Shown piece by piece: positions 6,611-26,409 of a DNA stretch of 52,123 bases. Position 1 is the first letter of the stretch; every line of letters begins with the position of its first letter. The notes under the pieces are model-generated. The model was given only the letters and a program-made list of their open reading frames with translations, made no database searches and was not told the origin of the DNA. A program made the translations under genes and the position numbers. The DNA is from Pseudomonadota bacterium (lineage in GTDB: Bacteria; Pseudomonadota; Gammaproteobacteria; Burkholderiales; Burkholderiaceae_C), in the NCBI GenBank assembly GCA_020161215.1, contig JAIUOM010000013.1:1-52123 (forward strand). Direction: 5' to 3'.

Positions 6611-6660
6611 AACGGCAGTAGACCAGCGCCCATCCATCCTGTGCAGCTATTATTTTGGAA
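6611..6660 (+). repeat. Dispersed repeat, copy G, at the 3' end of the CoA-transferase gene
   Basis: Contains the CATCCATCCTGTGCAGCTATTATTTT segment in pieces (ATCCTG, then GCAGCTAT), matching the head-to-tail arrangement of the family. The TAA stop of the minus-strand CoA-transferase lies inside it. Confidence 0.45.
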
Positions 6661-10158: not shown

Positions 10159-11472
<1,314 letters not shown>

Positions 11473-11479
11473 CGCAACC

Positions 11480-12274
11480 ATGTCCACGTCACCCCCACCC
11501 CTGGCCCAGGCCGACACCATTGCCGGCCTGATCAAGGGCATGGCCGTGCTGGAGAGCTTTGGCACCGAGCGCCAGCGCCTGAACGCCACCCAGGCGGCCG
11601 CGCGCGCGGGCCTGACCCGGGCGGCCGCGCGCCGCCACCTGCTGACGCTGGCGCACCTGGGTTACCTGGAGACGGAAGGCGGTGTGTTCTGGCTGGGCGC
11701 GCGTGCGCTGCGGCTGGCCGGGGCGTACCTGGCGTCCTCACGCCTGCCGCGGGCGATTCAGCCGGCGCTGAACCGCCTGGCGGCGCAAACCCAGGACGTG
11801 TATTCGGCGGTGGTGCTGGACGGCGACGAGGTGGTGATCATCGCGCGCAGCGCCGGGCTGGTGAGCTCGGCCGCGTCCTCGCGCTTGCTGGCCTACGGCA
11901 TGCACCTGGGCGCGCGCCTGCCCGCGCACGCCACCTCGACGGGGCGGGTGCTGCTGGCCGGCTTGCCCAAGGCGGCGCTGTCCAGTTGGTTGCGCGGCCG
12001 GCAACTGCCGCGCCTGACCCCGCACACCACCACCGGCCAGCGCGCCTTCCGCGCCTTGCTGACGGAGGTGGCGCACCAGGACTACTGCATGGCCAGCGAC
12101 GAGCACGAGCTGGGCGTGCAAGCCGTGGCGGTGCCGCTGCGCAACGCCCAGGGCGCCACCGTGGCGGCGCTGAACGTGATCGCGCCGCCCGGGCGCTTTG
12201 ACCCGGCGGCGGTGCAAGAGGCGGTGCTGCCGCGCCTGCGCGCGGCGGCCCGGGATCTGCGCGCGGTACTCTAA
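11480..12274 (+). CDS. pobR: IclR-family transcriptional regulator, probable pobA activator
   Basis: 264-residue protein with an N-terminal winged helix-turn-helix (residues about 14-75: AGLIKGMAVLESFG, LNATQAAARAGLTRAAARRHLLTL) and a C-terminal effector domain (IclR type, with DYCMASDEHELGVQAVAVPL). Start ATG 11480 is selected over the upstream frame opening at 11423 because that extension would run through the operator pair. Divergent from pobA; Acinetobacter PobR is an IclR-type activator responding to 4-hydroxybenzoate, so the same role is inferred. The gene symbol is by analogy. The 3' end meets dispersed repeat copy H. Confidence 0.85.
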   Translation: MSTSPPPLAQADTIAGLIKGMAVLESFGTERQRLNATQAAARAGLTRAAARRHLLTLAHLGYLETEGGVFWLGARALRLAGAYLASSRLPRAIQPALNRLAAQTQDVYSAVVLDGDEVVIIARSAGLVSSAASSRLLAYGMHLGARLPAHATSTGRVLLAGLPKAALSSWLRGRQLPRLTPHTTTGQRAFRALLTEVAHQDYCMASDEHELGVQAVAVPLRNAQGATVAALNVIAPPGRFDPAAVQEAVLPRLRAAARDLRAVL

Positions 12275-12346: not shown

Positions 12347-12493
12347 TCATACCCCCAGGTGCTGGGTCAGCAGTTCCGGGTCGGCCTGAATCCGCTCGGA
12401 GCTGCCTTCGAACACCACCTGGCCCTTGACCAGGATGACGTTGCGGTCGGTGACGCGGGTGACGTGCTTCCAGTTCTTGTCGACGATGATGCT
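12347..12493 (-). pseudogene. 3' remnant of livF (native end left by an insertion)
   Basis: Minus-strand translation gives 48 residues ending in LLTQHLGV and a stop. 42 of the 48 match the C-terminus of the intact livF at 26448-27257, and the first 25 residues are identical. There is no upstream reading frame: similarity ends abruptly at 12493. This is therefore the orphaned end of an ABC transporter ATPase gene. Confidence 0.9.
12432..12493 (-). repeat. Left junction repeat (attL-like) shared with livF
   Basis: 62-bp block identical to 26533-26594 except for one base (G12485 against A26586); the first 53 bases are perfectly identical. It is the last homologous sequence before the island. 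Confidence 0.85.
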
Positions 12494-12535: not shown

Positions 12536-13759
12536 TCAGCCAGTGGTGGGAGGACTGGCTCTTTGCCTGAGGAGGGCCCATGCGCATAGGGCGACAGGCA
12601 GAGCGATCAACAGGTAGCTTAGTCTGAAGCTGCCGCTGGTGCCGGCGACCAAGCCGAATACCAAGGGCCCCACCACCACGCCCAGGAATGTGAATGCCAG
12701 GGAACCACCGGTGGCGATGCCGGCGGCCCCCGCAGGGGCCTGTCGAGCGACCTCGGCCAGGTATACCCCGTTCCATCCGGTGGCGGAGGCACCAAACAAC
12801 GCAAGCAGAGCCATCAAAACGACAGAAGGAACATTGGCCTGCAGCAGTCCGGTACCGACCGCGCAGGAAGCCATGATGAGAGCCAGCAATGCCAGCATAC
12901 GCAGTGGTGAAATCCAGCGATCCGCCAGCCAACCCCACAATATGCGTCCCACCACGCCCCCCGTCTGGGATACGGACAAGGCCGCACCCGCAGCGACCAG
13001 CGTCAACCCGAGCTCCGCATTCAGATAGGTCACGAGGTACGCCGCCAAGCACATCTGAAGAGCTGAAAACACGAAAGATACGGCAGCCAAGCGTCTCAGC
13101 TGGCCATCGTGGATGACCAGGCTGATGGGTTGCCAGAGTTGTGAAAAATTGATTCGCCGATCGGGTTGGCGATCGTTGTCCAGATCCCGGCGTATCCACT
13201 CGGCCGCGCAGGCGCAAATCAGGCACGCCGATGCCACGCTCCACAGGGCGGCGCTCGAACCCGCACCCAGGACCATCGGGGGGACCAGGGCGCCGGCCAT
13301 CACGCCACCCAGCGGCACCCCTGTTTGCTTGACGGAGAAGAGGAGTGACGCGCGCCCCGTGGAGGCCGTGGTGCGCACGAGGATGTGAGAGCTTGCCGGA
13401 GTGATCGGGCCATAGCCCAGTCCTATGAGGACGGCGGCGGGTAGCGCAAGCGCCGGCCAGGGCGTGCAGGCAAGCACAATCAGTCCGGCGGCGCAGAGCA
13501 ACAGACCGATCTGGCTCACACGCATGGCACCCCAGCGTAGGACGAACGATCCCGCGCACATGCTGGAGGCCATCGCACCGAGGTAGATCACGGAGACAAA
13601 AAAACCAATCAACGAAACGGATACGCCCATCTGACGCGCCATGGCAGGTGCCATGGCCGGGACTGTCAACACCGCCATCGACACCATGGCTTGAATAGCC
13701 AAAGTTACCCCGAGGACCACCCAGGCACTGGCCGGGCGCGCAGCCTTGTCTTGCGACAT
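12536..13759 (-). CDS. MFS transporter, last gene of the mutase cluster
   Basis: 407-residue membrane protein with about 12 hydrophobic segments; TM1 region SAWVVLGVTLAIQAMVSMAV and an MFS-like GWLADRWISPLRMLALLAL in the second half. The start ATG 13759 follows an AAGGAT ribosome site; the open frame extends to 13834 but the extra 25 residues are polar. It lies 108 bases beyond the Bug receptor gene on the same strand, so it may belong to the mutase transcript, where it would import or export the pathway's acid. The closest analogy is to aromatic or organic acid MFS carriers; no specific substrate is supported. Confidence 0.85.
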   Translation of the reverse strand: MSQDKAARPASAWVVLGVTLAIQAMVSMAVLTVPAMAPAMARQMGVSVSLIGFFVSVIYLGAMASSMCAGSFVLRWGAMRVSQIGLLLCAAGLIVLACTPWPALALPAAVLIGLGYGPITPASSHILVRTTASTGRASLLFSVKQTGVPLGGVMAGALVPPMVLGAGSSAALWSVASACLICACAAEWIRRDLDNDRQPDRRINFSQLWQPISLVIHDGQLRRLAAVSFVFSALQMCLAAYLVTYLNAELGLTLVAAGAALSVSQTGGVVGRILWGWLADRWISPLRMLALLALIMASCAVGTGLLQANVPSVVLMALLALFGASATGWNGVYLAEVARQAPAGAAGIATGGSLAFTFLGVVVGPLVFGLVAGTSGSFRLSYLLIALPVALCAWALLRQRASPPTTG

Positions 13760-13867
13760 GTCGGATCCTTGCCGTTTGCTTTCCTTCACGTACTTGCGTG
13801 AAGCACCAGTGGGCGACGGCATACCCTCTGGCATGGTTTAGGGCAGTGCTCTATTGAACTGAATGAC

Positions 13868-14833
13868 CTAATCCAACTTTGCGCCGGATGCTTTCACGAC
13901 CTCGCCCCACTTCTTGATATCGGCGTGGAGCAAAGCGGCGAACTGAGCAGGGTCGGTGGCGAAGGGCTCCGCACCTTGAGCACCGAACTTGTCGATCACG
14001 TCCTTGGACTTGAGCAACTCATTGACATCCATGTTGATCTTGCGTACCACGGCAGCAGGCGTCTTACCGGGTGCGAATAGGCCGAACCACGGGTTGACGT
14101 CAAAGTCTTTGAAACCGGACTCGGCGATGGTGGGGATGTTCGGAAACGACGGTGAGCGCTTGGCACTGGTGACCGCCAACGGCATCAGTGTGCCCTGCTT
14201 GATGGAGCCGGCTACCGAGGGAAGGCTGGTAAAGACCAGATTGATCCTGCCGCCCATCAGATCCTGCATCGCAGGCGATGCGCCGCGGTACGGCACATGC
14301 ACCAGCTTCACGTTGGCGGCGTCGTTGAACATTTCCCCCAGCAAATGATTCACCGAGCCATTGCCAGCTGAACCAAAGGTCAGCCGCTGCGTTTTTGCCG
14401 CCGTCACCAACTCCGAGACGTTTTTGAATGCAGCGTCAGGCTTGGTCACCATCACAAAGGGAAGGGTGGCGAGGGTGGCCACCGGCGTGAAGTCTTTCTC
14501 GGGATCAAAAGGTAGGTTCTTATAGAGTGAGCCATTGATCGCGTGTGAGCCGACGTAGCTCATTAAAAGCGTGTGGCCGTCCGCGGGGGAGGTCGCTACC
14601 ACCTCCATGCCGACGTTGCCCCCGGCCCCGGAGCGGTTCTCCACGAACACCGTCTGGCCCCATTTCTCGGTCAGCTTCTGAGCGATGATGCGTGCCAATG
14701 TATCGGAGGCGCCCCCGGGTGTTTGTGGCACGAGTATTTTGACCGGGTGTGTCGGATAGTTTTGTGCCACAGCGATCAAGCCGAAGCATGCCAGAAACAA
14801 AGGCAACGTGAACTTTAGGATGGAACGGAACAT
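13868..14833 (-). CDS. Bug/TctC family periplasmic solute-binding receptor (mutase cluster)
   Basis: 321-residue extracytoplasmic receptor of the tripartite tricarboxylate transporter type. Signal peptide MFRSILKFTLPLFLACFGLIAVAQ (read in two parts) followed by the mature start NYPTHPVKILVPQTPGGASD, the family's ligand-carboxylate loop. Further family motifs: VENRSGAGGNVGMEVVA and ADGHTLLM. Start ATG 14833 has an excellent AAAAAGGAG; the frame opens at 14872 but that start would overlap meaB. No TctA/TctB membrane genes accompany it, as is common for Bug proteins in Burkholderiales, which often act as sensors or with unlinked permeases. It suggests the substrate is a small carboxylate. Confidence 0.93.
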   Translation of the reverse strand: MFRSILKFTLPLFLACFGLIAVAQNYPTHPVKILVPQTPGGASDTLARIIAQKLTEKWGQTVFVENRSGAGGNVGMEVVATSPADGHTLLMSYVGSHAINGSLYKNLPFDPEKDFTPVATLATLPFVMVTKPDAAFKNVSELVTAAKTQRLTFGSAGNGSVNHLLGEMFNDAANVKLVHVPYRGASPAMQDLMGGRINLVFTSLPSVAGSIKQGTLMPLAVTSAKRSPSFPNIPTIAESGFKDFDVNPWFGLFAPGKTPAAVVRKINMDVNELLKSKDVIDKFGAQGAEPFATDPAQFAALLHADIKKWGEVVKASGAKLD

Positions 14834-14865
14834 GGGTGTCTCCTTTTTTGGATAAGCGCTGGTGA

Positions 14866-15798
14866 TTACCAACGCGCGAGTTCGCCAAGCACGGCGTCAA
14901 TTTGCTGGGGCATCGGCTTGCTCAAGGTCGACTGATCGAGTCCGGATACGGTTTGCACCAGGCGTCTCTCGACGAGGCGGCGCAGTCGATAGCGGGCTCT
15001 GCCGTCGAGCACCTGTTCTTGGAGACCCTTTTGGATCATCCATGCGTGATGACGATCAATCTCTTGCGACAACGCTGCGATGCTCCCTGGTTGTTGGGAT
15101 GACGTGAGAACGACTGGGGGCCGCCACTCGTTCTCATCCATGCGTGTCATCGCGGCGATGCGCCGTATGTCGGCGACCATCCGTTGAGCCCCGGGGAGAT
15201 CCGCCTTGTTGACCACGTAGATGTCGGCCAACTCCATGATTCCTGCTTTCATGGCTTGAACGGTGTCGCCGCTGTCGGGAAGAAGCACCAGTACCAGTGT
15301 GTCAACCTGCGCGCGCGCGGCGTATTCGGCCTGACCGACACCGACGGTCTCAAGCAGCAGTTCGTCGAACCCGTGCGCGTCCATTGCATCGAGCATTTCT
15401 GGCAAGTTGTCGGACAAGCCATCAGTGGCCGCGCGCGAGCCTATCGATCGGATGTACAGGTCAGCGCTGCCAGGAAGATCGTCCATGCGGATGCGGTCGC
15501 CGAGGATCGCTCCGCCCGACTTCGGGCTGCTCGGATCGACGGCCAACACGCCGACGCGAAGTGGCGTCTTTGACTGTGTTAAGCGGTGAAGCGCCAGTTG
15601 ACCGCAGAGGGTGCTTTTTCCTGCACCCGGGGCGCCGGTTAGGCCAATGCGGAACGCACGGGTCTTTGGCGGTGCCGCGCATGGACGCTGAACCATGTCC
15701 TTGACACTTGCGTTTGCAAGTGCCGTCAACGTTTTTCCTAGCAAGAAACGATCGAGTGGGGCACGCCCGGAGCCCTCTCCGTTGGTTCGGGTCTTCAT
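14866..15798 (-). CDS. meaB: MeaB/ArgK-type G3E GTPase, mutase chaperone
   Basis: 310 residues. P-loop GAPGAGKST, the family's ILGDRIRM segment following VDPSSPKSGG, ETVGVGQAE (switch region) and NKAD base-specificity motif. MeaB proteins use GTP to gate cobalamin delivery to, and protect, B12-dependent acyl-CoA mutases from inactivation. The start ATG overlaps the CoA-transferase stop by 4 bases, making it the fifth gene of a tightly coupled set with both mutase subunits, so it is almost surely dedicated to this mutase. Confidence 0.95.
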   Translation of the reverse strand: MKTRTNGEGSGRAPLDRFLLGKTLTALANASVKDMVQRPCAAPPKTRAFRIGLTGAPGAGKSTLCGQLALHRLTQSKTPLRVGVLAVDPSSPKSGGAILGDRIRMDDLPGSADLYIRSIGSRAATDGLSDNLPEMLDAMDAHGFDELLLETVGVGQAEYAARAQVDTLVLVLLPDSGDTVQAMKAGIMELADIYVVNKADLPGAQRMVADIRRIAAMTRMDENEWRPPVVLTSSQQPGSIAALSQEIDRHHAWMIQKGLQEQVLDGRARYRLRRLVERRLVQTVSGLDQSTLSKPMPQQIDAVLGELARW

Positions 15799-16964
15799 GT
15801 CGATTGGTCTCCGACGGATCGCAGGACAACGTCGCGATGCTCATTCAGAGTCGGCGGCACCAGATAGCGCGGCTGGAAGCCATCAAACCTTATCGGACTT
15901 GCAATTGCACGCAGCGGATAGGGCTCATTGCCCGTTTCATCGGTCAACGGCACAATCATTTGGCGAGAGGCCGTCAGTTCACTGCTCAGGGCTTGCGCAA
16001 GCGTACCTACTTCAGAGGCCACCAAACCAAGTGGCACCAGGCGACGGACCCATTGGGCGGCTGTCGCACCCATCAGCACTTCGCTGATGGCGGCCAGTAC
16101 CGTGTCCCGGTTCCCACGGCGGGCAGCCATGGTGGCGAACTCCGGAGCACTCTCCCATTCTGGTTTTCCAACTTCGGCACAAAATTTGCGCCAGAACTTG
16201 TCGTGCGTGATGAACAGCGTGAGCCATCCTTCCGCCGTGGGGAAAATCTGAGCCGGCACCATGTAAGGGTGCGATGAGTTGGCCAGGCGCTCCATTATTT
16301 CGCCCGCATTCAACGCCGCCCCGGCCAGGTAGTTCAACTGCGACAGCATTACGTCGTACATCGCGACGTCCACCTGGCCACCTTTGCCCTCGACGATCTT
16401 TGCAAGCAGACCCATCGCCGCAACCATGCCGGCCGAGTTGTCGACAGCGGAATAGCCTGCCTTGGTGGGCGGCGCCGATGGGTCGCCGGTCAAGGCCATC
16501 ACCCCCGTGAGTGCCTGGATCACGTAGTCGTAGGCTGGGTTCTCCGCATATGGGCCGTCTAGGCCATACCCCGTGAGCGCGACGCACACAAGCTTTGGGT
16601 TGCAAGCACATAGACTTTCATATGTCAGCCCCAGCTTGCGAATCGCGGATGGTCGCAAATTGGTGATCAGGGCATGCGCGGAGCTCGCAATCTGCTCAAA
16701 TTCTGATCGACCCTGGGGTGTCGCAAGGTCCAGTACCACACTCTGTTTGCTGCGGTTGAGACTCGCAAAATAGGCATTGTGCGGGCCGATGGAGTGGGGG
16801 CTGATTTTTCGCCCTATGTCGCCTTCTGGTGGCTCAATCTTGATGACTTGCGCGCCCATGTCCGCCAGCAGAAGTCCGCAGTAAGGTCCGGCCAACATAT
16901 GACCCACCTCGATGACTCGGAGGCCCGCGAGCGGGCCTTCCTTGTGGGCTTTCGGGTTGTTCAT
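15795..16964 (-). CDS. Family III (CaiB/BaiF) CoA-transferase of the mutase operon
   Basis: Full-length 389-residue family III CoA-transferase. N-terminal LAGLRVIEVGHMLAGPYCGLL and IKIEPPEGD motifs, the catalytic Asp in ENPAYDYVIQALTG, and the typical GGQVDVAMYD. These enzymes move CoA between acids without a ping-pong anhydride intermediate. Here it would load CoA onto the acid or a downstream intermediate, probably from succinyl-CoA or another operon product (inference). Start and stop overlap the neighbouring genes by 4 bases each. CoA-transferases of this type also serve mesaconyl, citramalate, itaconate and oxalate pathways. Confidence 0.93.
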   Translation of the reverse strand: MNNPKAHKEGPLAGLRVIEVGHMLAGPYCGLLLADMGAQVIKIEPPEGDIGRKISPHSIGPHNAYFASLNRSKQSVVLDLATPQGRSEFEQIASSAHALITNLRPSAIRKLGLTYESLCACNPKLVCVALTGYGLDGPYAENPAYDYVIQALTGVMALTGDPSAPPTKAGYSAVDNSAGMVAAMGLLAKIVEGKGGQVDVAMYDVMLSQLNYLAGAALNAGEIMERLANSSHPYMVPAQIFPTAEGWLTLFITHDKFWRKFCAEVGKPEWESAPEFATMAARRGNRDTVLAAISEVLMGATAAQWVRRLVPLGLVASEVGTLAQALSSELTASRQMIVPLTDETGNEPYPLRAIASPIRFDGFQPRYLVPPTLNEHRDVVLRSVGDQST

Positions 16965-17377
16965 GTCAGCGCGACCGCGAGTTGCTGTACCACCGTATCC
17001 AGAGGCATGTCAGCAGTGAATACCGCCGCCACGCCGAGAGCGTGCAGGTGCTCACGGTCCTTGCCAGGGATGGTCCCGCCGACAAACAGCTTGACGCCCG
17101 ACGCGTTGCGTTTGGTCAGTTCCGACACCACGTCGGCTACCAACTCCTTGTGGCTCCCCGACAGAATGCTTAGACCAACGGCGTCAACGCCTTCATCCAC
17201 CGCGACCTGTGCGATCTGATCCGGGCTTCGACGTAGCCCCGTGTAGATGACTTCCGCTCCGGCGTCTCGAAGCGCCAGCGCGATGATCTTCGCACCAATG
17301 TCATGACCATCCAAGCCGGGCTTGCCGACCAGGATGCGGCGCCCCGCAAGAGGCCCTCTGTTGAGTGCTTGGCTCAT
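16961..17377 (-). CDS. B12-binding small subunit of acyl-CoA mutase
   Basis: 138-residue stand-alone cobalamin-binding domain. GKPGLDGHDIGAKIIAL contains the DxHxxG motif whose His coordinates cobalt, followed by the SILSGSH and FVGGTIP loops of the base-off/His-on Rossmann fold. ATG 17377 overlaps the large-subunit stop as ATGA and has AAGGAG upstream; the longer frame to 17461 lies inside the large subunit and is rejected. Together with the large subunit it forms a two-polypeptide mutase like 2-hydroxyisobutyryl-CoA, isobutyryl-CoA and archaeal methylmalonyl-CoA mutases. Confidence 0.95.
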   Translation of the reverse strand: MSQALNRGPLAGRRILVGKPGLDGHDIGAKIIALALRDAGAEVIYTGLRRSPDQIAQVAVDEGVDAVGLSILSGSHKELVADVVSELTKRNASGVKLFVGGTIPGKDREHLHALGVAAVFTADMPLDTVVQQLAVALT

Positions 17378-19008
17378 AAGTTCACTGGCTCCTTGAATTC
17401 GCCCCACTCTTTCTTCAGGCACGCCACCATCTCTCCGACGGTGGCATAGGCATGACAGCAATCCACGAGATAGGGCATGACGTTTTCTGTGTCGTTGGCG
17501 GCGGCCAGCGCGAGCTTTGCCAGCGTTTCATCCACCTTGGCTTGACTGCGCGAATCGAGTGTTCGTTGGAATTTTTCGAGTGCGCGCCCAGCCACGGTAG
17601 GATCAAGCGTGAACACATCGCCGACGCCAATTTCTTCGTCTGGTTTGTGGAAGTGATTCAGTCCCACCACGACGTTCTTGCCGCTGTCGATATCCAGCTT
17701 GCGTCCAAGTCCACGCTCCGCCAGACGGCGCTGAATCCAGCCTTCCTCAATGGCCTTTGTTACGCCACCGTAGGCTTCGATTTCGCTCATGATCGTGAGG
17801 ATCATTTCTTCCATCCGATCCGTGTGTTGCTCCAGCACGTAGCTCCCTCCAAGGGGATCGACGCTGCGGGCGATGCCGCTTTCGTAGGCAACGATCTGCT
17901 GGGTACGCACGGCCAACTCAGCACTGAACTCGGTCGGGATCTGAAAGGCTTCGTCCAGCGCGCAGGTAAATATGGACTGTGCGCCACCAAATACCGCGGC
18001 CATGGTTTCCACTGCCACGCGCACCACGTTGTTGTGGGGTTGAGGGGCCACCAAGGAAGACCCTCCGCAGACGACGCCGAAACGAAAATGCTGCGCCTTG
18101 GGATCGTTTGCTCCGTAGCGTTCCTTCATGAAGCGGGCCCATAAGCGCCGCCCTGCACGGAACTTGGCAACCTCGTCGAAGAAATCCATGTGCACATAGA
18201 AGAAGAACGACAGGCGCTTGGCGAATTTCTCGACATCTCCGCCGCGTCGATTCAGTTCGTCGACATAGGCAAGGCCATTGGCCAGCGTATAGGCCATCTC
18301 TTCCGCTGCCGTTGCACCGGCGTCGCGCACATGCGCGCCAGCAATGCTGATCGGATTGAAGCGTGGCGTGATGTCGTTGGAGTAGAGGATGCTGTCGGCG
18401 ATCAACCTCATCGAAGGGCGAACCGGAAAGATCCAGGTGCCTCGGGCGACATACTCTTTCAGAATGTCGTTCTGAATCGTGCCGGTCAGCTTGGATCTGG
18501 GCACGCCTTGTTTGTCGGCGACCGCCAGATACATGGCGTAGATGATGGCGGCAGTTCCGTTGATCGTGAATGAGGTCGAGATCTTCGAAAGATCCAGGTC
18601 TTTGAAGAGAATCTCCGCCTCAGAAAGGTTGGACAGCGACACCCCTACCTTGCCGATCTCTGGGCGTGCCATGGGGTGTGTAGGGTCGTACCCGCATTGC
18701 GTCGGCAAATCCAGCGCCACGGACAATCCAGTCTGTCCCTGCTTTAAAAGAAACTTGTAGCGCTCGTTGGATTCTTCGGCTGTCCCGAAGCCGGAGTATT
18801 GGCGGATGGTCCACAACCGCCCCTGATAGCCGTCAGGGAAGATGCCGCGGGTGAAGGGGTACTCTCCCGGCTTCCCGATGGCATTTGAGTTGACGACACT
18901 GGCATCGACGTACGGTGGTACTTCGATGCCGCTTCTGCTCACCGTATCCAGTTGTGGATCAGCGGGCACATTGGGCGTGTTCGCCGTGGGGGATTCACGT
19001 GTGTTCAT
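17374..19008 (-). CDS. Coenzyme B12-dependent acyl-CoA mutase, large (catalytic) subunit, substrate unassigned
   Basis: 544-residue TIM-barrel subunit without a fused B12 domain. Around the active site it aligns to Propionibacterium methylmalonyl-CoA mutase with a constant offset of 18: Tyr71 (Tyr89), Ala98 (Ala116), Arg189 (Arg207, substrate carboxylate) and His226 (His244). In 2-hydroxyisobutyryl-CoA mutase the matching residues are Ile90, Asp117, Gln208 and His245, so that function is unlikely. Unlike standard methylmalonyl-CoA mutases, it has TQCGYDPTHP in place of THRGYDSDNP and Leu99 for Phe. Start ATG 19008 overlaps the crotonase stop; the frame opens earlier but within that gene. A carboxylated acyl-CoA (methylmalonyl-, ethylmalonyl-, methylsuccinyl-type or novel) is inferred. 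Confidence 0.93.
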   Translation of the reverse strand: MNTRESPTANTPNVPADPQLDTVSRSGIEVPPYVDASVVNSNAIGKPGEYPFTRGIFPDGYQGRLWTIRQYSGFGTAEESNERYKFLLKQGQTGLSVALDLPTQCGYDPTHPMARPEIGKVGVSLSNLSEAEILFKDLDLSKISTSFTINGTAAIIYAMYLAVADKQGVPRSKLTGTIQNDILKEYVARGTWIFPVRPSMRLIADSILYSNDITPRFNPISIAGAHVRDAGATAAEEMAYTLANGLAYVDELNRRGGDVEKFAKRLSFFFYVHMDFFDEVAKFRAGRRLWARFMKERYGANDPKAQHFRFGVVCGGSSLVAPQPHNNVVRVAVETMAAVFGGAQSIFTCALDEAFQIPTEFSAELAVRTQQIVAYESGIARSVDPLGGSYVLEQHTDRMEEMILTIMSEIEAYGGVTKAIEEGWIQRRLAERGLGRKLDIDSGKNVVVGLNHFHKPDEEIGVGDVFTLDPTVAGRALEKFQRTLDSRSQAKVDETLAKLALAAANDTENVMPYLVDCCHAYATVGEMVACLKKEWGEFKEPVNL

Positions 19009-19823
19009 GCTGTGGTCTTCGTCAAAAGTCGGTCGGCTGCACGCCAGTGCTCGTCGTGAAGCCAAGTGCGCAACAGGTGCTGCTGCTCGACGCTGCGATG
19101 CGCTGCCCATCCGTTGTCAAATCGAGCCGCAATAGCTTGAGCCTTGATTCCACGCAGTACCAGGGGGGGGCAGCGATTCAGGGGGTCTAGGAAGGCGGCC
19201 AGATCGGTGCCCTCGGCACCGTCATGGATGACGGCGTCCGCCAGCCCCCAGCTCATGGCGGTGGTTGCGTCGATCAGTTCAGCGCGACTCATCATGCGCA
19301 TCGCACGTGAGGGGCCGACCAGGCGGAACAGATCTGGCCCGCCACCCCAAGCGGAGGTGATGGCGAGCCTTGCCTGGATATACCCAATCCGCGCATGGTT
19401 GCCTTGCATCCGCATGTCGCATGACAGCGCCAGTTCGGCGCCACCGCCGATTGCGTCGCCATTCAAGTACGCAAGCACCGGCACCGGACACCGCCGAATG
19501 GCGTCCAGCGCACCGCCCGCCTCTTCCATCATGGCCGTCACCGCAGCTTCGTCGCGCACGGCGGACAGCTCGCGGAGATCACCACCGGCAGCGAAATACT
19601 TCTCACCCGCGCCACGAACAACGATGTATCGGGTGCTCTCGCGCTGACCCGCGTGGCGCACCGCCTCCGCCAGTTCAGTCAGAACTGGGCGCGCCAATGC
19701 GTTGTGCTTCGGCTGACGGTTGATGGTGATCCAGACCGCACCGTGCTCACGCTCTTCGATCGTCACGTGCTGCTCACACGGTGCCGGTTTCTGCCGCAGA
19801 TTTGTCTTTTGCATGAGGGTCAT
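19005..19823 (-). CDS. Crotonase-superfamily enzyme (hydratase or decarboxylase-like), first gene of mutase operon
   Basis: 272 residues with the two oxyanion-hole regions of the enoyl-CoA hydratase family (KYFAAGGDL and NGDAIGGGAELALSCD). Glu130 in GGGAEL matches rat hydratase Glu144, but at the fixed 20-residue spacing, where Glu164 should be, there is Gln150 (GYIQARL). Loss of one catalytic Glu is a feature of crotonases that do other chemistry, such as acyl-CoA decarboxylases and isomerases. It heads the operon and overlaps the mutase large subunit by 4 bases. ATG 19823 is used; ATG 19814 is equally possible since neither has a strong ribosome site. Confidence 0.9.
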   Translation of the reverse strand: MTLMQKTNLRQKPAPCEQHVTIEEREHGAVWITINRQPKHNALARPVLTELAEAVRHAGQRESTRYIVVRGAGEKYFAAGGDLRELSAVRDEAAVTAMMEEAGGALDAIRRCPVPVLAYLNGDAIGGGAELALSCDMRMQGNHARIGYIQARLAITSAWGGGPDLFRLVGPSRAMRMMSRAELIDATTAMSWGLADAVIHDGAEGTDLAAFLDPLNRCPPLVLRGIKAQAIAARFDNGWAAHRSVEQQHLLRTWLHDEHWRAADRLLTKTTA

Positions 19824-19858
19824 GGTAGATTTAAGAAAATTCTTAGTAAAGAAAGAAA

Positions 19859-19934
19859 ATTCAAAATACCGAACAAAACTAAATTGAAGGAGGCGTAGTC
19901 TTGAAATTAGATCAAAATGTTCAAAATATCGAAC
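19859..19934. promoter_or_regulatory. Two IclR-type operators, 60 bp apart, at the mutase/regulator divergent promoter
   Basis: GTTCAAAATATCGAAC (19919-19934) is a GTTC-N8-GAAC inverted repeat lying inside codons 7-12 of the regulator gene. ATTCAAAATACCGAAC (19859-19874) repeats it exactly 60 bases upstream. The region between contains the regulator's ribosome site. A further symmetric AAGAAAATTCTT lies at about 19842-19853. Confidence 0.65.
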
Positions 19935-20725
19935 AACTGAGTGCTGGCCCTGAGCCCATTTCTAGATCGGCAGCAAGTGGCACCGCGGTGACCGCGGTGG
20001 AGCGTGTGCTTGATGTGTTCGAAGCCTTTCAGCGGATAAAGAAGCCGCTGTCGTTGACTGGGGTGGCGGAGATCACGGGCATCCCGAAGAGCAGTTGCCA
20101 TGCCATCGTTGGCACGCTCATCGCTCGCGGCTATCTGTATTCGCTGAGTCGCCCGCGTGCGCTGTACCCGACGCGTCGTTTGTTCGACGTGGCGCGTGAA
20201 GTTCAGGCCAACGATCCGTTTGTCGACCATGTCACTCCTTTGCTTGAGAGCCTGCGTGACACCTCGCGGGAGACCGTGATTCTTGGTAAGCGCCAGGGTG
20301 AAGCCGTGATCTACCTGCAGGTCTTTGAGAGTCCTCACTCCATTCGCTATTCGTCGCAACCTGGACAGTTCAAACCGCTGCATTCCAGTGCGATCGGCAA
20401 GGCGCTTCTTGGCAGCTTGCGGGAGTCGGATTTGCGCGCGCAGCTGGTTGGGCGTGACTTTGCTCGCGTGACCTTGTCCACACTGACCGATGCCGATGCG
20501 CTGATCGCGGATGTTCTGGAGGGACGCAAACGTGGTTACTTCGTCACCCGCGGAGAGAACGTGCCGGACGTGTGGGGGGTCTCGGCGTTCTTGAGTGCGT
20601 ACTCAGAAACTTTGGCGGTGGCTATAGCGGGGCCGCGACATCGAATGGAGCACAAGGTACTTGAGCACGCACAGCTGCTGCTGGCCACCTGTGGCGTGAT
20701 TTCCCGTCAGTGGGCTCAGCGGTGA
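19901..20725 (+). CDS. IclR-family regulator of the mutase cluster
   Basis: 274 residues with the IclR winged HTH (about residues 28-85: AVERVLDVFEAFQRIKKPLSLTGVAEITG, SSCHAIVGTLIARGYLY) and effector domain (SSAIGKALLGSL, GYFVTRGENVPDVWGVSAFL). It begins with TTG at 19901, supported by GAAGGAGG seven bases upstream; no ATG fits the conserved N-terminus better. Divergent from the mutase operon with 77 bases between starts and flanked by a repeated GTTC/GAAC operator, one copy within its own 5' coding region, suggesting autoregulation. Effector presumably the substrate or an acyl-CoA intermediate (inference). Confidence 0.92.
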   Translation: MKLDQNVQNIEQLSAGPEPISRSAASGTAVTAVERVLDVFEAFQRIKKPLSLTGVAEITGIPKSSCHAIVGTLIARGYLYSLSRPRALYPTRRLFDVAREVQANDPFVDHVTPLLESLRDTSRETVILGKRQGEAVIYLQVFESPHSIRYSSQPGQFKPLHSSAIGKALLGSLRESDLRAQLVGRDFARVTLSTLTDADALIADVLEGRKRGYFVTRGENVPDVWGVSAFLSAYSETLAVAIAGPRHRMEHKVLEHAQLLLATCGVISRQWAQR

Positions 20726-21612
20726 CAGATGCGGTCGTATCGGATGGCTCTGTGACTCAGACTGATTCGGCCTGCAGCGGGCTTGTCGCCAAAGCTTCGA
20801 TCCATCGCACTCCTTGCGGATCGGGCGATATGGTTTGGCGGACATGGGCGCCTGAGTTTCCAGCCGGTACCGAAAGTCTGGTCCTTCTGATCCATGGCGG
20901 GAGCGGAACCTGGAGGCACTGGCTGCGCAATATTCCGGCGTTGTTGGACGCCGGCCATACCGTGTGGGCTCCAGATTTGCCGGGGTTTGGGGATTCTGAT
21001 GCCCCGCCCGGAAACGGCGATGCGGATTCTGTCGTCGCGCCACTTGTTCAGGGCATGCATCTTTTGTTTGGGGGAAAACCCTGCAGGGTGGTTGCGTTTT
21101 CGTTCGGGTCATTGGTGACAGCCCTGTCGGCGGCGACCCACCCCGAAGTCTTCTCGCGCGCGCTCTTTGTCGGCATGCCGGTCCTGCCATTGCCGCATGG
21201 GCGAGGCATTTCCACACGCAGTTTGCGTAATGTCCATACCGAGATCGAGCGAAACGAAGTCCACCGTGCGAACTTGGCCGCGATCATGATTCATGATCCA
21301 GCGCGCATTGACGACGAAGCAATCCGAATTCAGGCGGCCAGTGCGCCGCTTGATCGCATGCGCAATCGCAAGCTCGTGACGACGGACCTATGCCAGCGCA
21401 CGTTGAAAAAGTTACAAATGGGCTTTGAGTGCGTCTACGGCCAACAAGATGTCCTGTACCGGGATCAATGGAGGCAAGTGCGCCAGGCCGTTGAGACGTG
21501 TTCCACGTCTCAGGGGCTTCATTTCATCGACGACGCCGGTCATTGGGTGCAGTTTGAGCAGGCAGAGCGCTTCAATAAGCAGATGCTGACGTGGCTCAGG
21601 CTTCACTGCTGA
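20710..21612 (+). CDS. Alpha/beta hydrolase co-transcribed with the IclR regulator
   Basis: 300-residue alpha/beta-hydrolase fold protein. Oxyanion motif LLIHGGSGTWRHW, nucleophile elbow AFSFGS (Ser in the S-x-x-S/GxSxG position), and late DDAGHWVQFE with the catalytic His. It starts at GTG 20710, overlapping the regulator's end by 16 bases, so the two are translationally linked. C-C bond hydrolases, esterases and thioesterases share this pattern. In context it may release the pathway acid from an ester or cleave an intermediate (inference). ATG starts further in would remove only leader residues. Confidence 0.85.
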   Translation: MGSAVTDAVVSDGSVTQTDSACSGLVAKASIHRTPCGSGDMVWRTWAPEFPAGTESLVLLIHGGSGTWRHWLRNIPALLDAGHTVWAPDLPGFGDSDAPPGNGDADSVVAPLVQGMHLLFGGKPCRVVAFSFGSLVTALSAATHPEVFSRALFVGMPVLPLPHGRGISTRSLRNVHTEIERNEVHRANLAAIMIHDPARIDDEAIRIQAASAPLDRMRNRKLVTTDLCQRTLKKLQMGFECVYGQQDVLYRDQWRQVRQAVETCSTSQGLHFIDDAGHWVQFEQAERFNKQMLTWLRLHC

Positions 21613-21625
21613 GTCTATGTCGCAC

Positions 21626-21850
21626 CTGAACCGCCCCGGGATTGAACTGATCCCCAGAAGTTGGACGGTCGCGAAAGTGTGGACCTTCTCCTCGGGCAAC
21701 GACCACTGCCGAGCCAGCAGCTTTGCGCCGCCTTCGCCCGCCAAGAAGCTCTGGACAACCACAAGCTTGAACTCAGCTCTGTACTTCTTCATGAAACCCC
21801 TTGAAGTCCGTCCAACTTCTTGGGGTCAGTTCAATCCCGGGGCGGTTCAG
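21626..21850 (-). mobile_element. Internally deleted IS3-family (IS150-like) element with long inverted repeats
   Basis: 225 bp bounded by 43-bp inverted repeats (CTGAACCGCCCCGGG... against ...CCCGGGGCGGTTCAG) that differ at about two positions. The interior on the minus strand from 21792 encodes the first part of an orfA-type transposase, MKKYRAEFKLVVVQSFLAGEG then GAKLLARQWSLPEEKV, before breaking down into the left repeat. No orfB remains, so it is non-autonomous, of MITE-like structure. It sits between the two island modules. No matching 3-bp target duplication is visible. Confidence 0.85.
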
Positions 21851-21870
21851 ACCGCCTGCAGAGCTCATGA

Positions 21871-22890
21871 CTAGGAGCGCGGGCGTAGTTGACCGCACGA
21901 GCCGCCAATGACCAGATCCCATTCCAGCACGACACGTCGTGCTTGTGGTGCAGCCGTTCCCTCGATGCGGTCCAGCATTAGTTGTACGGCAACTTCGGCG
22001 CTGCGGTGATAGTCGTAGCGCAGCGCCGTGACAGGTGGGTACATCAGCTCCAGCTGTTCAGTAGTACCTATACCAATCATTGAGAAGTCGCGCGGTACCT
22101 CTAACCCTCGACCGCGCACAACATGAAGAGCGCCGGACAGCAACTGCGTACCCAGCGCGATGAGCGCGGTGGGCGGCGAGGGTAGCTGTAACATTCTCTG
22201 CACGGGCTCGCGCGACGAAGCTAGCCATGATTCCGGCATGTAGATCAGAGCTGGGTCGAACTGCAGCCCGGCCGCGCCCAGCGCGGCCTTGTAGCCGCGC
22301 AGTTTCTCGCGGCCCGGTGCAAGGTTGGCGCCAGAAACCAACATGGCGATACGCTGGTGACCGAGCGCAAGCAGGTACTCCATTGCCTGATGCATACCAC
22401 CAGCGTGGTTCATCAGTACACAGTCATAATCCTCACCAAGATCGCGTTCGACAATAACTACGGGTAAGGTGGTCTTGCCGAACGGACAGTCAGTCGGGTC
22501 GGGGTACTCGAAGCTAGGTGAGGCGATGATTCCCTCCAGCCGCCGGTTCTCAAAAAAAGCCACCAGTTCGCGATCGCGAGTCGGTCGCTGTGAACTGCCC
22601 ACCAATAAGGAATAACCGGCTGATCTCATCAACTGCTCCACTTCGCTCAAGTGCGCAGCCGGAACTGGATTGGCGATCGTTGGTAGGAGATAACCGATAG
22701 TCTTGCTGCGGCCGGTACGTAGGTGGCGTGCAGTGAAATCTGGTTCGTATCCTAGCGCCGTCACCGCATCGAGTACATGCTTCCGTAGCTCGACGCTAGC
22801 GTAGCCGCTATCGTTGAGTACGCGCGATACGCTACCCACAGAAACGCCAGCGGCGGCTGCAACGTCGCGTACAGAAACGCGTTTAATCAT
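21871..22890 (-). CDS. LacI-family transcriptional repressor of module B
   Basis: 339 residues. N-terminal LacI HTH and hinge (VSVRDVAAAAGVSVGSVSRVLNDSGYAS, cited in parts; ARHLRTGRSKTIGYLLPTIANP) followed by a periplasmic-binding-protein-like sensor domain (GHQRIAMLVSG, IGIGTTEQLELMYPPVTALRYD). Divergent from the Bug receptor/ligase/lyase genes with 126 bases between starts and a LacI-type operator in the gap, so it most likely represses that set until its ligand, perhaps the transported acid, binds. Lower GC than the flanking chromosome. Confidence 0.93.
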   Translation of the reverse strand: MIKRVSVRDVAAAAGVSVGSVSRVLNDSGYASVELRKHVLDAVTALGYEPDFTARHLRTGRSKTIGYLLPTIANPVPAAHLSEVEQLMRSAGYSLLVGSSQRPTRDRELVAFFENRRLEGIIASPSFEYPDPTDCPFGKTTLPVVIVERDLGEDYDCVLMNHAGGMHQAMEYLLALGHQRIAMLVSGANLAPGREKLRGYKAALGAAGLQFDPALIYMPESWLASSREPVQRMLQLPSPPTALIALGTQLLSGALHVVRGRGLEVPRDFSMIGIGTTEQLELMYPPVTALRYDYHRSAEVAVQLMLDRIEGTAAPQARRVVLEWDLVIGGSCGQLRPRS

Positions 22891-22961
22891 GGTTTTCCAG
22901 CATAAAAACGTTCCACAGGATTGCTGTGCGCTGATGAGATCCCTAAACTGAATTCACGCTA

Positions 22962-22975
22962 TGGAAACGATTCTA
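22962..22975. promoter_or_regulatory. LacI-type operator upstream of the module B receptor gene
   Basis: TGGAAACGATTCTA fits the family pattern TGnAAnCGnTTnCA at all but one fixed position. A weaker partner, AAAAACGTTCCA, lies at about 22904-22915 nearer the lacI-type start. Confidence 0.6.
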
Positions 22976-23016
22976 CATTCGGAGCTCTATCAGGCTCCAG
23001 CACAAGGAGAGAAGTC

Positions 23017-23988
23017 ATGCGTTCGCTGATATCTATTTTCATCACCACCGCAGCGCTGGTCGCCGTATCACCCAGTGCCGCAATAGCTCAAGAATGGCCG
23101 AGTCGATCCGTGACTTTTTTGCAGCCCTACGGGCCGGGCACCAATCTGGACGCCATTACGCGTTACCTCGCCACAATCATGGGCGCGCAGTGGAAGCAGT
23201 CAGTGGTGGTGGAGAACAAGGCAGGGGCCAATGGTGTGATCGGCACAGAGCAGGCAGCTCGGGCTCCTGCTGATGGTTACACGTGGCTGTTTACCGGTCC
23301 CGGTCATTTCACCAATGAAGTGCTGATGGGCAGGGTGCCGTTTGATCCGATAAACGACTTTAAGCCTGTAGCGAGACTAGCCAGCGTCATGTTGGTAATG
23401 GTAGTGCCAGCTGATTCTCCGTTCAAATCGGTCGGGGACATCATCGAGGCCGCGAAAAAAAATCCTGGTCGCCTGAGCTACGCATCTGCTGGTAGCGGCA
23501 GCTCTCAACATCTGTCTGCTGCTGCTTTCCAGTATGCGGCCGGTGTGCAGTTCCTGCACGTTCCGTACAAAACGCAGGCAGCTGCGCTGACGGACACGTT
23601 GAGCGGCCGGGTGAGCTTTACCTTCACTGCTCTCGCCACTGCGAAGACCCAGATGGCGTCAGGGCGAATCCGCGCACTAGCGGTCACTGGACCACGCCGA
23701 TCGCAGTCGCTGCCAGAACTTCCCACTGTCGCCGAGTCAGGTTTGCCGGGCTATGAATTCTTCTCGTTCAATGCGGTGTTTGTTCCAGCCGGTACGTCTG
23801 ACGATATCGTGCGCAAATTCTCAGATGCGTTGGCCAGTGCGACTCGAACTGTCCAGTTCACCGAAATGGCTAAGGCGCAGGGATTCGAGAGCGATTTCGC
23901 GGATGTGAAAGCATGGTCGAAGGCGGTGCCGGCCGAGAGTAAGAAGTGGCAGGATCTGATCCGCATCAGTGGAGCGAAGAATGAATAG
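23017..23988 (+). CDS. Bug/TctC family periplasmic solute-binding receptor (module B)
   Basis: 323 residues with a signal peptide (MRSLISIFITTAALVAVSPS then AAIAQ) and mature start EWPSRSVTFLQPYGPGTNLD. Family motifs VVENKAGANGVIGTEQAARAPADGYT and HVPYKTQAAALTDTLSGRV are present. ATG 23017 is preceded by AAGGAGAG; an in-frame opening at 22921 covers the operator and is rejected. The gene overlaps the ligase start by 8 bases, so receptor and enzyme are coupled. Orphan, without TctA/TctB permease genes nearby. Implies a carboxylate substrate for the module. Confidence 0.93.
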   Translation: MRSLISIFITTAALVAVSPSAAIAQEWPSRSVTFLQPYGPGTNLDAITRYLATIMGAQWKQSVVVENKAGANGVIGTEQAARAPADGYTWLFTGPGHFTNEVLMGRVPFDPINDFKPVARLASVMLVMVVPADSPFKSVGDIIEAAKKNPGRLSYASAGSGSSQHLSAAAFQYAAGVQFLHVPYKTQAAALTDTLSGRVSFTFTALATAKTQMASGRIRALAVTGPRRSQSLPELPTVAESGLPGYEFFSFNAVFVPAGTSDDIVRKFSDALASATRTVQFTEMAKAQGFESDFADVKAWSKAVPAESKKWQDLIRISGAKNE

Positions 23989-25621
23989 GCTTCCTGGATA
24001 CCACGCACCCAGTGCCACCATCGACCGTGTGCTGCGCGATCGTAACGCTCAATGGGGCAAAAAAATTTTCCTGACGTGGCTGCAGACTGGCAGCACCCTG
24101 TCGTACAGGCAACTCGACGAGCTTACTCTGCGTGTAGGAGCGGGCATAACCGCTGCAGGGGTATCGGCACGCGGCCATATCGGTGTGTTTATGAATAACT
24201 GTCCAGAGCAGCTGCTGGGCATTCTCGGGCCGGCGCGGGCAGGCTTCGTTTCGGTCCCACTCAACGCGGCTGCCAGGGGGCAGTTGCTGGCGTACTTCCT
24301 GGACCATGCTGACTGTGTCGCGCTGATTGTGGAGGAGGAACTATTGCCGCATTTCTTAGAGATACGTGAGCAAGTGCCGCGTGTGCGGCACGTATTCGTC
24401 GCGCGACCAGATCGTGAGAGGAAGGCGGAGTCTACACCTCAACCTGCTGACATAACCTTGCACGAATTCACAAGCCTGACTACCGCCCCTGCTGCGTTGT
24501 CTGGTGAATCACCTGATTTCAAGGATCTGGCGATGCTCATGTTTACTTCTGGCACTACGGGACCATCGAAGGCGATCATGTACACGCACGCCCAATTTGT
24601 CTACTGGGGCATGGATGTCGCTCACCATCACGAGTACACGTCTGATGATGTGGCTTATGTATTTCTCCCGCTATTCCATGGTAATGCGTTGTTAGGCAGC
24701 ACTATGGGTTCCCTGATGTCTGGTGCGGCCATCGCCCTAGCACCGCGTTTTTCGGTCAATCGCTTCTGGACGCATATCCGCTCAAGCGGTGCGACAGTTT
24801 TTAATGGTGTGGGTGCGGTAACCAATTTCCTATGGAAACTGCCACCATCTCCGACTGATCGAGATCATGCTGTCAGGCGTTGCCATCTGGCACCCGTACC
24901 CAGTTTCGCCCACGAGTTCGAGGCGCGCTTCGGAATGACCGTAATGAGTGCGTTCGGTCTGACCGACTACTGCTTGGGTGCTGCCTACAACACAACAAGC
25001 CCACGAGGCAAACTTGGCTCTTGCGGGCAGGCACGTGCGGGTGTGGAAATACGTATCGTCGACGAGGATGATTTTGACGTGTCGCCCGATACACCCGGCG
25101 AAATCGTCCTGCGTAACAACAATCCTTGGGGCGCTTCGCTTGGCTATTACAAACAGGCCGAGGCCACGGCCGCGAGCCGGCGCAATATGTGGTTCCATAC
25201 CGGAGATCGCGGCCGGATGGACGAGGACGGCTACCTCTGGTACACCGACCGCATAAAGGATGCGATTCGCCGCCGGGGAGAGAATATCTCGGCATTCGAG
25301 GTTGAGGAAGTCATTCGAACTCACCCGGCGGTAGACGATGTCGCGGTCTACCCGGTGTGCGCTGAGACCAGCGAAGACGAAGTGGCCGCTACTATCACCC
25401 TGCGGCCTGGTGCAGCTGAAAGTTTCAGCTATGAGTCATTGCTGATCCACTGCAGCCGAAATTTAGCTTACTTCATGGTGCCACGCTATGTTCAAGTGAC
25501 ACAGAAGATGCCTGCAACGCTGAGCCAGAAGATCGAAAAATATAAGCTGCGCCGCGAGGCGGAAGCCGATCTTTCGGCGCTGTGGGATCGTGAGCGCTCA
25601 GGTGTTCAGGTCACGCGCTGA
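23981..25621 (+). CDS. ANL-superfamily acyl-CoA synthetase (CaiC-like acid:CoA ligase)
   Basis: 546-residue AMP-forming ligase. Motifs: phosphate loop LMFTSGTTGPSKAIMYTHAQ (positions about 187-206), SAFGLTDYC (A5 variant), HTGDRG, the hinge RIKDAIRRRGENIS and a C-terminal Lys in LSQKIEKYKLR. It should activate the imported acid to its CoA thioester with ATP. ATG 23981 lies within the receptor's stop region (ATGAATAG), giving coupled translation; an upstream GTG at 23969 is also in frame. It resembles carnitine/crotonobetaine and other small-acid ligases; the acid cannot be named. Confidence 0.93.
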   Translation: MNRLPGYHAPSATIDRVLRDRNAQWGKKIFLTWLQTGSTLSYRQLDELTLRVGAGITAAGVSARGHIGVFMNNCPEQLLGILGPARAGFVSVPLNAAARGQLLAYFLDHADCVALIVEEELLPHFLEIREQVPRVRHVFVARPDRERKAESTPQPADITLHEFTSLTTAPAALSGESPDFKDLAMLMFTSGTTGPSKAIMYTHAQFVYWGMDVAHHHEYTSDDVAYVFLPLFHGNALLGSTMGSLMSGAAIALAPRFSVNRFWTHIRSSGATVFNGVGAVTNFLWKLPPSPTDRDHAVRRCHLAPVPSFAHEFEARFGMTVMSAFGLTDYCLGAAYNTTSPRGKLGSCGQARAGVEIRIVDEDDFDVSPDTPGEIVLRNNNPWGASLGYYKQAEATAASRRNMWFHTGDRGRMDEDGYLWYTDRIKDAIRRRGENISAFEVEEVIRTHPAVDDVAVYPVCAETSEDEVAATITLRPGAAESFSYESLLIHCSRNLAYFMVPRYVQVTQKMPATLSQKIEKYKLRREAEADLSALWDRERSGVQVTR

Positions 25622-25638
25622 ATACCGTTCGAGGAATA

Positions 25639-26409
25639 ATGATGCGAATTAGAACTCAGCCTACAACTTCTATCGCTACTTCCGATGAGCGCCGCATCTT
25701 GGTCCGTGGACAGGATCTGGTACAGGACCTGATTGGCCAGGTGAGCTTCACCGAGATGTTCCTACTGCAATTGACCGGAAAGCGGCCGCCTAAGGCTCAC
25801 GTCCGTATCCTCGATGCAGTACTGACTACGTTGATGGAGCACGGTATTACACCCAGCGTAATCGCCTCTCGGCTGATTTATCATTCCGCGCCGGACGCAT
25901 TACAAGCAAGCGTTGCCGCAGGTTTGCTGGGTGTGGGCTCCACATTCATCGGCACTATGGAAGGCTGCGCGGCTGATTTGGAAGAGGTCTTGTCGGCACC
26001 GGAAGGTATGGGAGAACGAGCATACGCTATTGTGCAGCGCTACAGGAATTCTGGCAAACCGGTTCATGGATTCGGCCATCCACTCCACAAACCGGACGAC
26101 CCTCGCGCCGCATGTCTGCTGGCCATAGCCGAGAATGAGGGCGTCGAGGGACGCCACATCGCGGCGTTGAGAGTGCTCGCCACACAGGTGGATGAAATCT
26201 ACGGTCACCACATTACGATCAATGCGACAGGCGCTTCTGCAGCACTTCTGGGCGAGATCAATATTCCACAAAAGATAATGCGCGGAGTCGCTGTGGTCAG
26301 CCGATCTGCCGGACTGGTGGGGCACATCTGGGAGGAAAGTCAGAACCCGTCGGCAGCCTTTATTTGGCAAACGGTGGACGAAGCCATTCCTTTTAAAGCA
26401 CAAGACTGA
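25639..26409 (+). CDS. Citryl-CoA lyase-like protein (short citrate-synthase fold)
   Basis: 256 residues, about the length of citryl-CoA lyase and of the citrate-synthase-like domain of ATP-citrate lyase, much shorter than citrate synthase. GFGHPLHKPDDPRA (His147) matches the GFGHR...DPR region of citrate synthase. By eye the other two catalytic positions differ: FIGTMEGCA replaces LHGGANEA (His lost) and ITINATGAS replaces the NVDFYSG Asp with Asn195. It would cleave a 3-hydroxy-3-carboxyacyl-CoA into acetyl-CoA (or a homologue) and a 2-oxo acid, following the ligase. Seventeen bases separate it from the ligase; GAGGAA precedes the start (ATG 25639 or 25642). Confidence 0.85.
   Translation: MMRIRTQPTTSIATSDERRILVRGQDLVQDLIGQVSFTEMFLLQLTGKRPPKAHVRILDAVLTTLMEHGITPSVIASRLIYHSAPDALQASVAAGLLGVGSTFIGTMEGCAADLEEVLSAPEGMGERAYAIVQRYRNSGKPVHGFGHPLHKPDDPRAACLLAIAENEGVEGRHIAALRVLATQVDEIYGHHITINATGASAALLGEINIPQKIMRGVAVVSRSAGLVGHIWEESQNPSAAFIWQTVDEAIPFKAQD

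Follow-up and report, generated by a model that had tools for sequence, protein, structure and literature searches.

We analyzed a 52,123-nt stretch of contig JAIUOM010000013.1 from a Pseudomonadota bacterium of the Burkholderiaceae_C (assembly GCA_020161215.1), called the window here, in which the large and small subunits of a B12-dependent acyl-CoA mutase are encoded together with a crotonase-fold protein, a type III (CaiB) CoA-transferase and a MeaB-type GTPase (Table 1). Pfam and NCBIfam placed these genes and their neighbors in the same families, and at the same positions, as a first-pass annotation of the sequence. The ATGA overlaps said to join the five genes were also found, four in all, with the starts of the large-subunit, small-subunit, CaiB and MeaB genes lying over the preceding stops. 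The gene products show what marks the superfamily of B12-dependent acyl-CoA mutases, an MM_CoA_mutase large domain and a B12 domain with DxHxxG; the B12 motif itself (DGHDIG) and the P-loop and NKAD motifs of MeaB are intact. The five-gene order is not a chance arrangement, since it recurs in beta-, gamma- and alphaproteobacteria.

Table 1. Features of the mutase operon and its surroundings in the window.
Feature	Position	Strand	Basis
Direct repeat of 147 bp, left copy	12347-12493	.	86% identity to right copy
Major facilitator superfamily (MFS) carrier	12536-13834	-	PF07690
TctC/Bug periplasmic receptor	13868-14872	-	PF03401
MeaB-type GTPase	14866-15798	-	PF03308; P-loop and NKAD
Type III (CaiB) CoA-transferase	15795-16964	-	PF02515, 364 bits; every NCBIfam equivalog cut-off missed
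B12-binding small subunit	16961-17377	-	PF02310; TIGR00640 above cut-off; motif DGHDIG
B12 acyl-CoA mutase large subunit, 544 aa	17374-19008	-	PF01642; TIGR00641 above cut-off; clade and residues
Crotonase-fold protein with Gln for the second catalytic Glu; candidate decarboxylase	19005-19823	-	PF00378
Divergent IclR-family regulator	19901-20725	+	PF01614 and PF09339
Alpha/beta hydrolase directly after IclR; pathway link uncertain	20830-21612	+	PF12697 (scan from 20710)
Direct repeat of 147 bp, right copy, 3' end of ABC ATPase gene	26448-26594	.	

Phylogenetic placement of the large subunit

Few specificities are known among acyl-CoA mutases, namely those of methylmalonyl-CoA mutase (MCM), ethylmalonyl-CoA mutase (ECM), isobutyryl-CoA mutase (ICM), 2-hydroxyisobutyryl-CoA mutase (HCM), pivalyl-CoA mutase (PCM), IaaGH and the proposed alkyl types, and each has opened a route for branched carbon. 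Relatives of the window mutase were taken from a scan of genome contigs, of which 80 of 595 were kept, and from plasmid records, four being used of the seven at at least 69% identity. Duplicates were dropped before counting (L002, L089 and L099, own locus; L090, with the same scores as L005), as were L100-L102 and L114-L116, which hold the same genes as other rows. The resulting clade has 31 rows, 16 proteobacterial (clade A) and 15 actinobacterial (clade B). Among the 80 kept loci, relatives at 67-86% identity came from Burkholderiaceae, other Betaproteobacteria, Gammaproteobacteria including Billgrantia, and one Hyphomicrobiaceae metagenome-assembled genome (MAG), relatives at 52-58% from Mycobacteriaceae, Actinomadura, Amycolatopsis and one acidimicrobiian MAG, and the remaining loci showed identities of 53% or less. 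Plasmid-borne relatives were present in Diaphorobacter, Sulfitobacter, Paraburkholderia and Marinobacter. The clade is rare: counting the window's own genome each time, it was detected at family level in 3 of 200 genomes (E 1e-200) and at order level in 2 of 399 (E 1e-170), and its profile matched 7 of 398 genomes of the phylum at E 1e-190. Four of these seven scored ~970-1010 bits and three (L103-L105) ~663 bits; the two of the latter that were placed in a tree group with HCM. No description of the clade was found in the open-access papers searched.

In four trees, the clade was separate from MCM, ECM, HCM, PCM and ordinary split mutases. Clades A and B were united with a Shimodaira-Hasegawa-like approximate likelihood ratio test (SH-aLRT) value of 99 in the first tree and with bootstrap/SH-aLRT values of 100/97, 98/95 and 98/92 in the later three, which held 17, 9 and 10 of the 31 clade rows; removal of 20 singled-out columns left the clade at 82/79. 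IcmF sat on a very long branch in the first tree and was omitted from the later ones, and the long rows L152, L158 and L159 were in one tree and omitted from three later ones, whose rows were picked after that tree had been seen. ECM, a single row on a long branch, was placed with fused MCM and not with the clade. The window mutase represents a new subclade within an already known kind of enzyme.

A search of 20 genomes from the family of locus L070 (record titled Desulfarculaceae) gave a match in 19 and led to loci L160, L162 and L163. At L162, genes were found for a CaiB protein, an electron transfer flavoprotein with an Fe-S domain, an acyl-CoA dehydrogenase, small and large mutase subunits, hydantoinase A and B, and a molybdenum hydroxylase. 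Hydantoinases and a molybdenum hydroxylase belong to iaa operons. Published work on the indoleacetate degradation of Aromatoleum aromaticum describes phenylsuccinyl-CoA transfer by IaaL, conversion to benzylmalonyl-CoA by IaaGH and oxidative decarboxylation by IaaF, and reports carriers among sulfate reducers, Desulfocarbo indianensis being one of them (PMC8360864). Given the operon content of L162 and this route, we named the three rows, which look like IaaG by operon content only, IaaG-like. They were sister to the clade (94/86, 92/90 and 95/91; 86/94 without the 20 columns) and, with moderate confidence, appear to be its nearest group.

A grouping with L153-L155 (95/80, 98/93 and 94/93) was lost when the 20 columns were removed, with a p value of 0.42 for keeping it in the approximately unbiased (AU) test, and was not relied on. 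These three loci represent another uncharacterized mutase type, changed at positions 328, 330, 364 and 366, that adjoins a glyoxalase/epimerase-like gene and a CoA ligase gene, with two short-chain dehydrogenase/reductase (SDR) genes in L153 and L154 and thiolase and Bug-like receptor genes in L155. The mutase of L159 (G966, contig C100) is very divergent (branch 2.8) and without Tyr89, Gln197, Arg207 and His244; several crotonase-like matches surround it.

Four loci of the window's own genome match PF01642, encoding a fused MCM (contig C66), the window mutase, an IcmF-type fusion (C183) and a mutase on C36. The first-pass annotation had proposed that the window mutase is not a housekeeping MCM, and this held: the large subunit lies outside the fused-MCM clade in all four trees, scores below the NF006944 cut-off (539 vs 876 bits) and shares its genome with three other mutase loci. 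The C36 locus (L003, 388-4271) holds a TetR-like gene, the small and large subunits, and a MeaB that by eye runs into a thioesterase-like domain. Its mutase groups in the trees with the Xaut_5041-5045 type, which has a similar gene layout and in which Xaut_5043 is PCM. MeaB and the thioesterase-like domain form a single reading frame at C36 and separate genes in Xanthobacter. When tested against Xaut_5043, the window clade neither grouped with PCM nor had its pocket residues.

Residues of the substrate site

We aligned the 31 clade rows with 3 IaaG-like rows, 3 of the L153 type and 79 others; positions are alignment positions in MCM numbering, which runs one ahead of the PDB 1req chain index. 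Tyr71, Ala98, Arg189 and His226 of the window protein align with MCM Tyr89, Ala116, Arg207 and His244, so that the constant offset of 18 reported earlier, and the divergent Leu99 beside it, were both recovered. The substrate-site residues of housekeeping MCM, Tyr89, Arg207 and His244, are therefore present in the window mutase, and Tyr89, Ala116, Gln197, Arg207, His244 and Glu370 are conserved in 31/31 clade rows. Because Arg207, Tyr89, His244 and Gln197 are kept throughout, a carboxylate-bearing substrate is likely. In the human enzyme, the residue equivalent to Arg207, Arg-228, is described as mobile and as bonding either to MMAA or to the side chain of the corrin (PMC10356863).

Stronger changes, overlooked at first, were found at other positions. 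All 31 clade rows have Ala for Tyr243 (Tyr in 76/79 others), Gly for His328 (His in 77/79), Val for Gln330 (Gln in 77/79), Phe for His364 (His in 73/79) and Cys or Ala for Asn366 (Asn in 70/79). In the window protein these residues are Ala225, Gly311, Val313, Phe347 and Cys349. Glu247 is likewise Asp in 31/31 (Glu in 76/79 others), and Phe117, the position of window Leu99, is Leu in 30/31 (Phe in 76/79). The three IaaG-like rows have also lost His328, Gln330, His364 and Asn366, with other letters in their place except Cys366, and keep Tyr243. The one ECM row has Gly328, is without Asn366 and retains Tyr243 and Gln330. His328 and Asn366 are thus lost in the clade, in 3/3 IaaG-like rows and in the ECM row, mutases whose kin take larger substrates. 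Such changes are said to have been named by Erb et al. in 2008 as typical of ECM. A structure model of the large subunit was set aside: its mean pLDDT was 69.5, and values were below 50 in the segments 315-332 and 339-390, which contain several of the changed residues.

Neighborhoods of the mutase in relatives

A crotonase gene is found directly upstream of the mutase in 15/15 clade-A loci holding the upstream stretch (L009 is cut). CaiB stands beside the mutase in 28/31 clade loci, 13/16 in clade A and 15/15 in clade B, though the loci vary in the length of their flanks, some being short, and in 0/59 other loci of the same genome-contig scan (E 1e-10). MeaB was detected in 14/16 clade-A loci and not in L009 or L110 (the wider locus of L092); L008 and L108 have an adenosyltransferase gene after it. 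In 7/9 clade-B loci with called genes, a luciferase-like monooxygenase gene lies between the small subunit and CaiB. An IclR gene is beside the operon in many relatives. The transporters differ (Bug, TAXI-TRAP, DctP-TRAP, MFS and ABC): a TctC/Bug receptor also adjoins the operon in L005 and L111, and L012 and L109 have MFS genes with 35-41% identity to that of the window. Downstream of the operon, L005 and L010 carry 2-oxoglutarate-type oxygenase, aldehyde dehydrogenase and SDR genes, and the opposite strand at L107 carries type I CoA-transferase, aldehyde dehydrogenase and SDR genes ~4-8 kb upstream; the oxygenase, aldehyde dehydrogenase and SDR of the first two loci, and the last two enzymes in L107, could make a carboxylate. 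A Shinella plasmid locus (L095, 2023-8904) has an aminotransferase, a B12 protein, MeaB, an HCM-like mutase with Val89, a crotonase and a ligase in a row.

In the window crotonase, the second catalytic Glu of hydratases is Gln150 (aligned to 5jbx and 3kqf). Of 12 family members, 11 have Gln and one has His at this position, and the first Glu is kept in 12/12. With the second Glu replaced in every member, we rejected an enoyl-CoA hydratase identity, which the protein probably does not have. E. coli ScpB is also without Glu at this position, with a motif that differs from that of the window protein. The SAWGG motif of the crotonase presumably resembles that of ECHDC1, the ethylmalonyl-CoA decarboxylase, and the protein may be a substituted-malonyl-CoA decarboxylase. 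A second, short CaiB-like protein is encoded at window positions 6650-7558, off the island described below, and shows 26.8% identity to the operon CaiB.

The mutase operon lies on an acquired island

GC content is ~56-60% between ~13 and 26 kb of the window and ~62-77% outside. Two same-genus genomes were searched, and the one carrying pobA (G146, locus L166) has an empty site, with pobA/pobR and the flanking ABC-transporter operon ~1.2 kb apart. The island is bounded by the direct repeat in Table 1, whose copies are identical at 127/147 positions with a single mismatch within the last ~60 bases. From the GC drop, the empty site and the repeat, we conclude that the operon sits on an acquired island of ~14 kb; the first reading of the sequence had already placed it on an island. 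No integrase was recognized among the island genes. The repeat on both sides looks as if the incoming DNA carried its own ABC ATPase gene end.

A proposed pathway and its alternatives

These data suggest a route in which a bulky alpha-substituted acid of the succinate type, with two carboxylates, would be imported and would receive CoA from another thioester via the CaiB transferase. The B12 mutase, its two subunits guarded by MeaB, would then move the thioester carbon, turning a 2-substituted succinyl-CoA into a substituted malonyl-CoA, and the crotonase-fold protein would remove the malonyl carboxylate to leave a straighter acyl-CoA for beta-oxidation. The earlier proposal of a route for a branched mono- or dicarboxylate stands as to an island-borne B12 mutase operon, and its substrate can be narrowed: a substituted dicarboxylic acyl-CoA is favored over a monocarboxylate because the clade retains Arg207 and has the IaaG-like rows as its nearest group. 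Uptake would fall to the Bug receptor and the MFS carrier, in a clade whose transporters differ between relatives. We consider the odds even that the locus is an island-borne catabolic module for such an alpha-substituted acid, with the substrate class, direction and decarboxylation inferred.

Related logic is known elsewhere. As in the window, IaaGH is a split mutase accompanied by a type III CoA-transferase, and His328, Gln330 and Asn366 are lost in the IaaG-like rows too. In contrast, the window operon has a crotonase rather than the acyl-CoA dehydrogenase IaaF and is without hydantoinase or molybdenum hydroxylase genes, so that of IaaF, IaaL and the other iaa genes CaiB alone has a counterpart, and Tyr243 is changed to Ala only in the window clade. 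Anaerobic alkane degraders have alkylsuccinate mutases that, like the proposed MatB/ActD mutases of matlystatin and actinonin, interconvert substituted succinyl- and malonyl-CoA; both were compared by description only, and neither glycyl-radical nor natural-product genes were seen at the window locus. Work on an alkane degrader proposes the same rearrangement, followed by decarboxylation, for its propylsuccinates (PMC9576796), and the reverse, without decarboxylation, has been proposed for matlystatin and actinonin (PMC5719088).

Several observations weigh against the proposed pathway. No crotonase gene lies directly upstream of the mutase in the 14 clade-B loci with upstream sequence (L015 is cut), and CaiB is missing from clade-A loci L011, L013 and L107. 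The decarboxylase idea, which may be right, stands on the missing Glu and a presumed motif likeness to ECHDC1. The operon CaiB has no special likeness to IaaL, with 32.5% identity to an IaaL-like protein vs 33.2% to another CaiB, and we rejected it as an IaaL orthologue. Support for the link to the IaaG-like rows, which are on a long branch, is moderate, and AU tests do not formally reject joining the clade with fused MCM (p 0.075), HCM (p 0.113) or PCM (p 0.06).

If the acid were instead a smaller substituted malonate or succinate, for example ethylmalonate or methylsuccinate, the route could run toward or from methylsuccinyl-CoA and the crotonase would catalyze a different step. This would fit the single ECM row, which shares Gly328 and the absence of Asn366 with the clade; with ECM beside fused MCM in the tree, albeit on a long branch, and with Tyr243 and Gln330 kept there, we regard this as unlikely. 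About as unlikely is an Sbm-type cycle on succinate or methylmalonate, in which succinyl-CoA would pass through methylmalonyl-CoA to propionyl-CoA and CoA would return to succinate. The E. coli sbm operon (scpA, argK, scpB, scpC) does combine a mutase, a MeaB-type GTPase, a crotonase-fold decarboxylase and a CoA-transferase, four functions that serve succinate, and Arg207, Tyr89 and His244 are retained in the clade. However, E. coli ScpA is a fused MCM within the fused-MCM clade and retains His328, Gln330, Tyr243 and Asn366, the transferase is of the ScpC type rather than type III, the ScpB motif is unlike that of the window crotonase, and the window's genome already has a fused MCM.

That the mutase acts on a monocarboxylic acid, as HCM, PCM and ICM do, is very unlikely. 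HCM is also a split mutase with MeaB, it provides the best PDB match of the window mutase (4r3u), and the AU tests leave room for HCM or PCM kinship; yet the HCM, PCM and IcmF rows have neither Arg207 nor Tyr89, both present in 31/31 clade rows. The identity suggested by 4r3u was ruled out on pocket residues, in agreement with the first-pass exclusion of HCM: in the two HCM rows, positions 89, 116 and 207 are Ile, Asp and Gln instead of Tyr, Ala and Arg, and HCM is accompanied by a CoA ligase, not a transferase, in Xanthobacter and Methylibium. The window mutase is neither a housekeeping MCM nor HCM. It is more improbable still that the pocket changes reflect different chemistry or cofactor use and not a larger substrate. 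Positions near-invariant in the 79 other rows are changed in 31/31, and some of them are adenosyl contacts, but the B12 motif, MeaB, Tyr89, Arg207, His244, Gln197 and Glu370 are intact, adenosyltransferase genes follow MeaB in L008 and L108, and His328, Gln330 and Asn366 are also lost in the IaaG-like rows.

Beyond the single locus, we tentatively raise a broader possibility, on balance doubtful: that these B12 acyl-CoA mutases, their pocket rebuilt, form a class not described so far and power an ATP-free module in which CoA transfer, rearrangement and decarboxylation straighten bulky 2-substituted succinates. The module would serve Proteobacteria and also Actinobacteria, where the cluster includes a luciferase-like oxidoreductase gene and lacks a crotonase directly upstream, and would spread on islands and plasmids. 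A clade fixed for changes at near-invariant positions, which comes with a transferase, a chaperone and a candidate decarboxylase of its own, would offer a testable case of how radical mutases admit larger substrates outside the anaerobic alkane and auxin degraders from which such chemistry is mostly known.

Other genes on and beside the island

The island carries a second gene set at 21871-26409, encoding a LacI-type regulator, a TctC/Bug receptor, an AMP-forming CoA ligase and a short citryl-CoA-lyase-like protein; none of these was seen beside the mutase in relatives with called or annotated genes. An open reading frame at 21412-21792 looks like a transposase OrfA remnant, and megablast of 21412-21870 against the plasmid collection gave zero matches. 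Adjoining the island, window positions 10159-12274 hold pobA and a PobR/PcaR-type regulator gene, a pair also present in the island-free same-genus relative.

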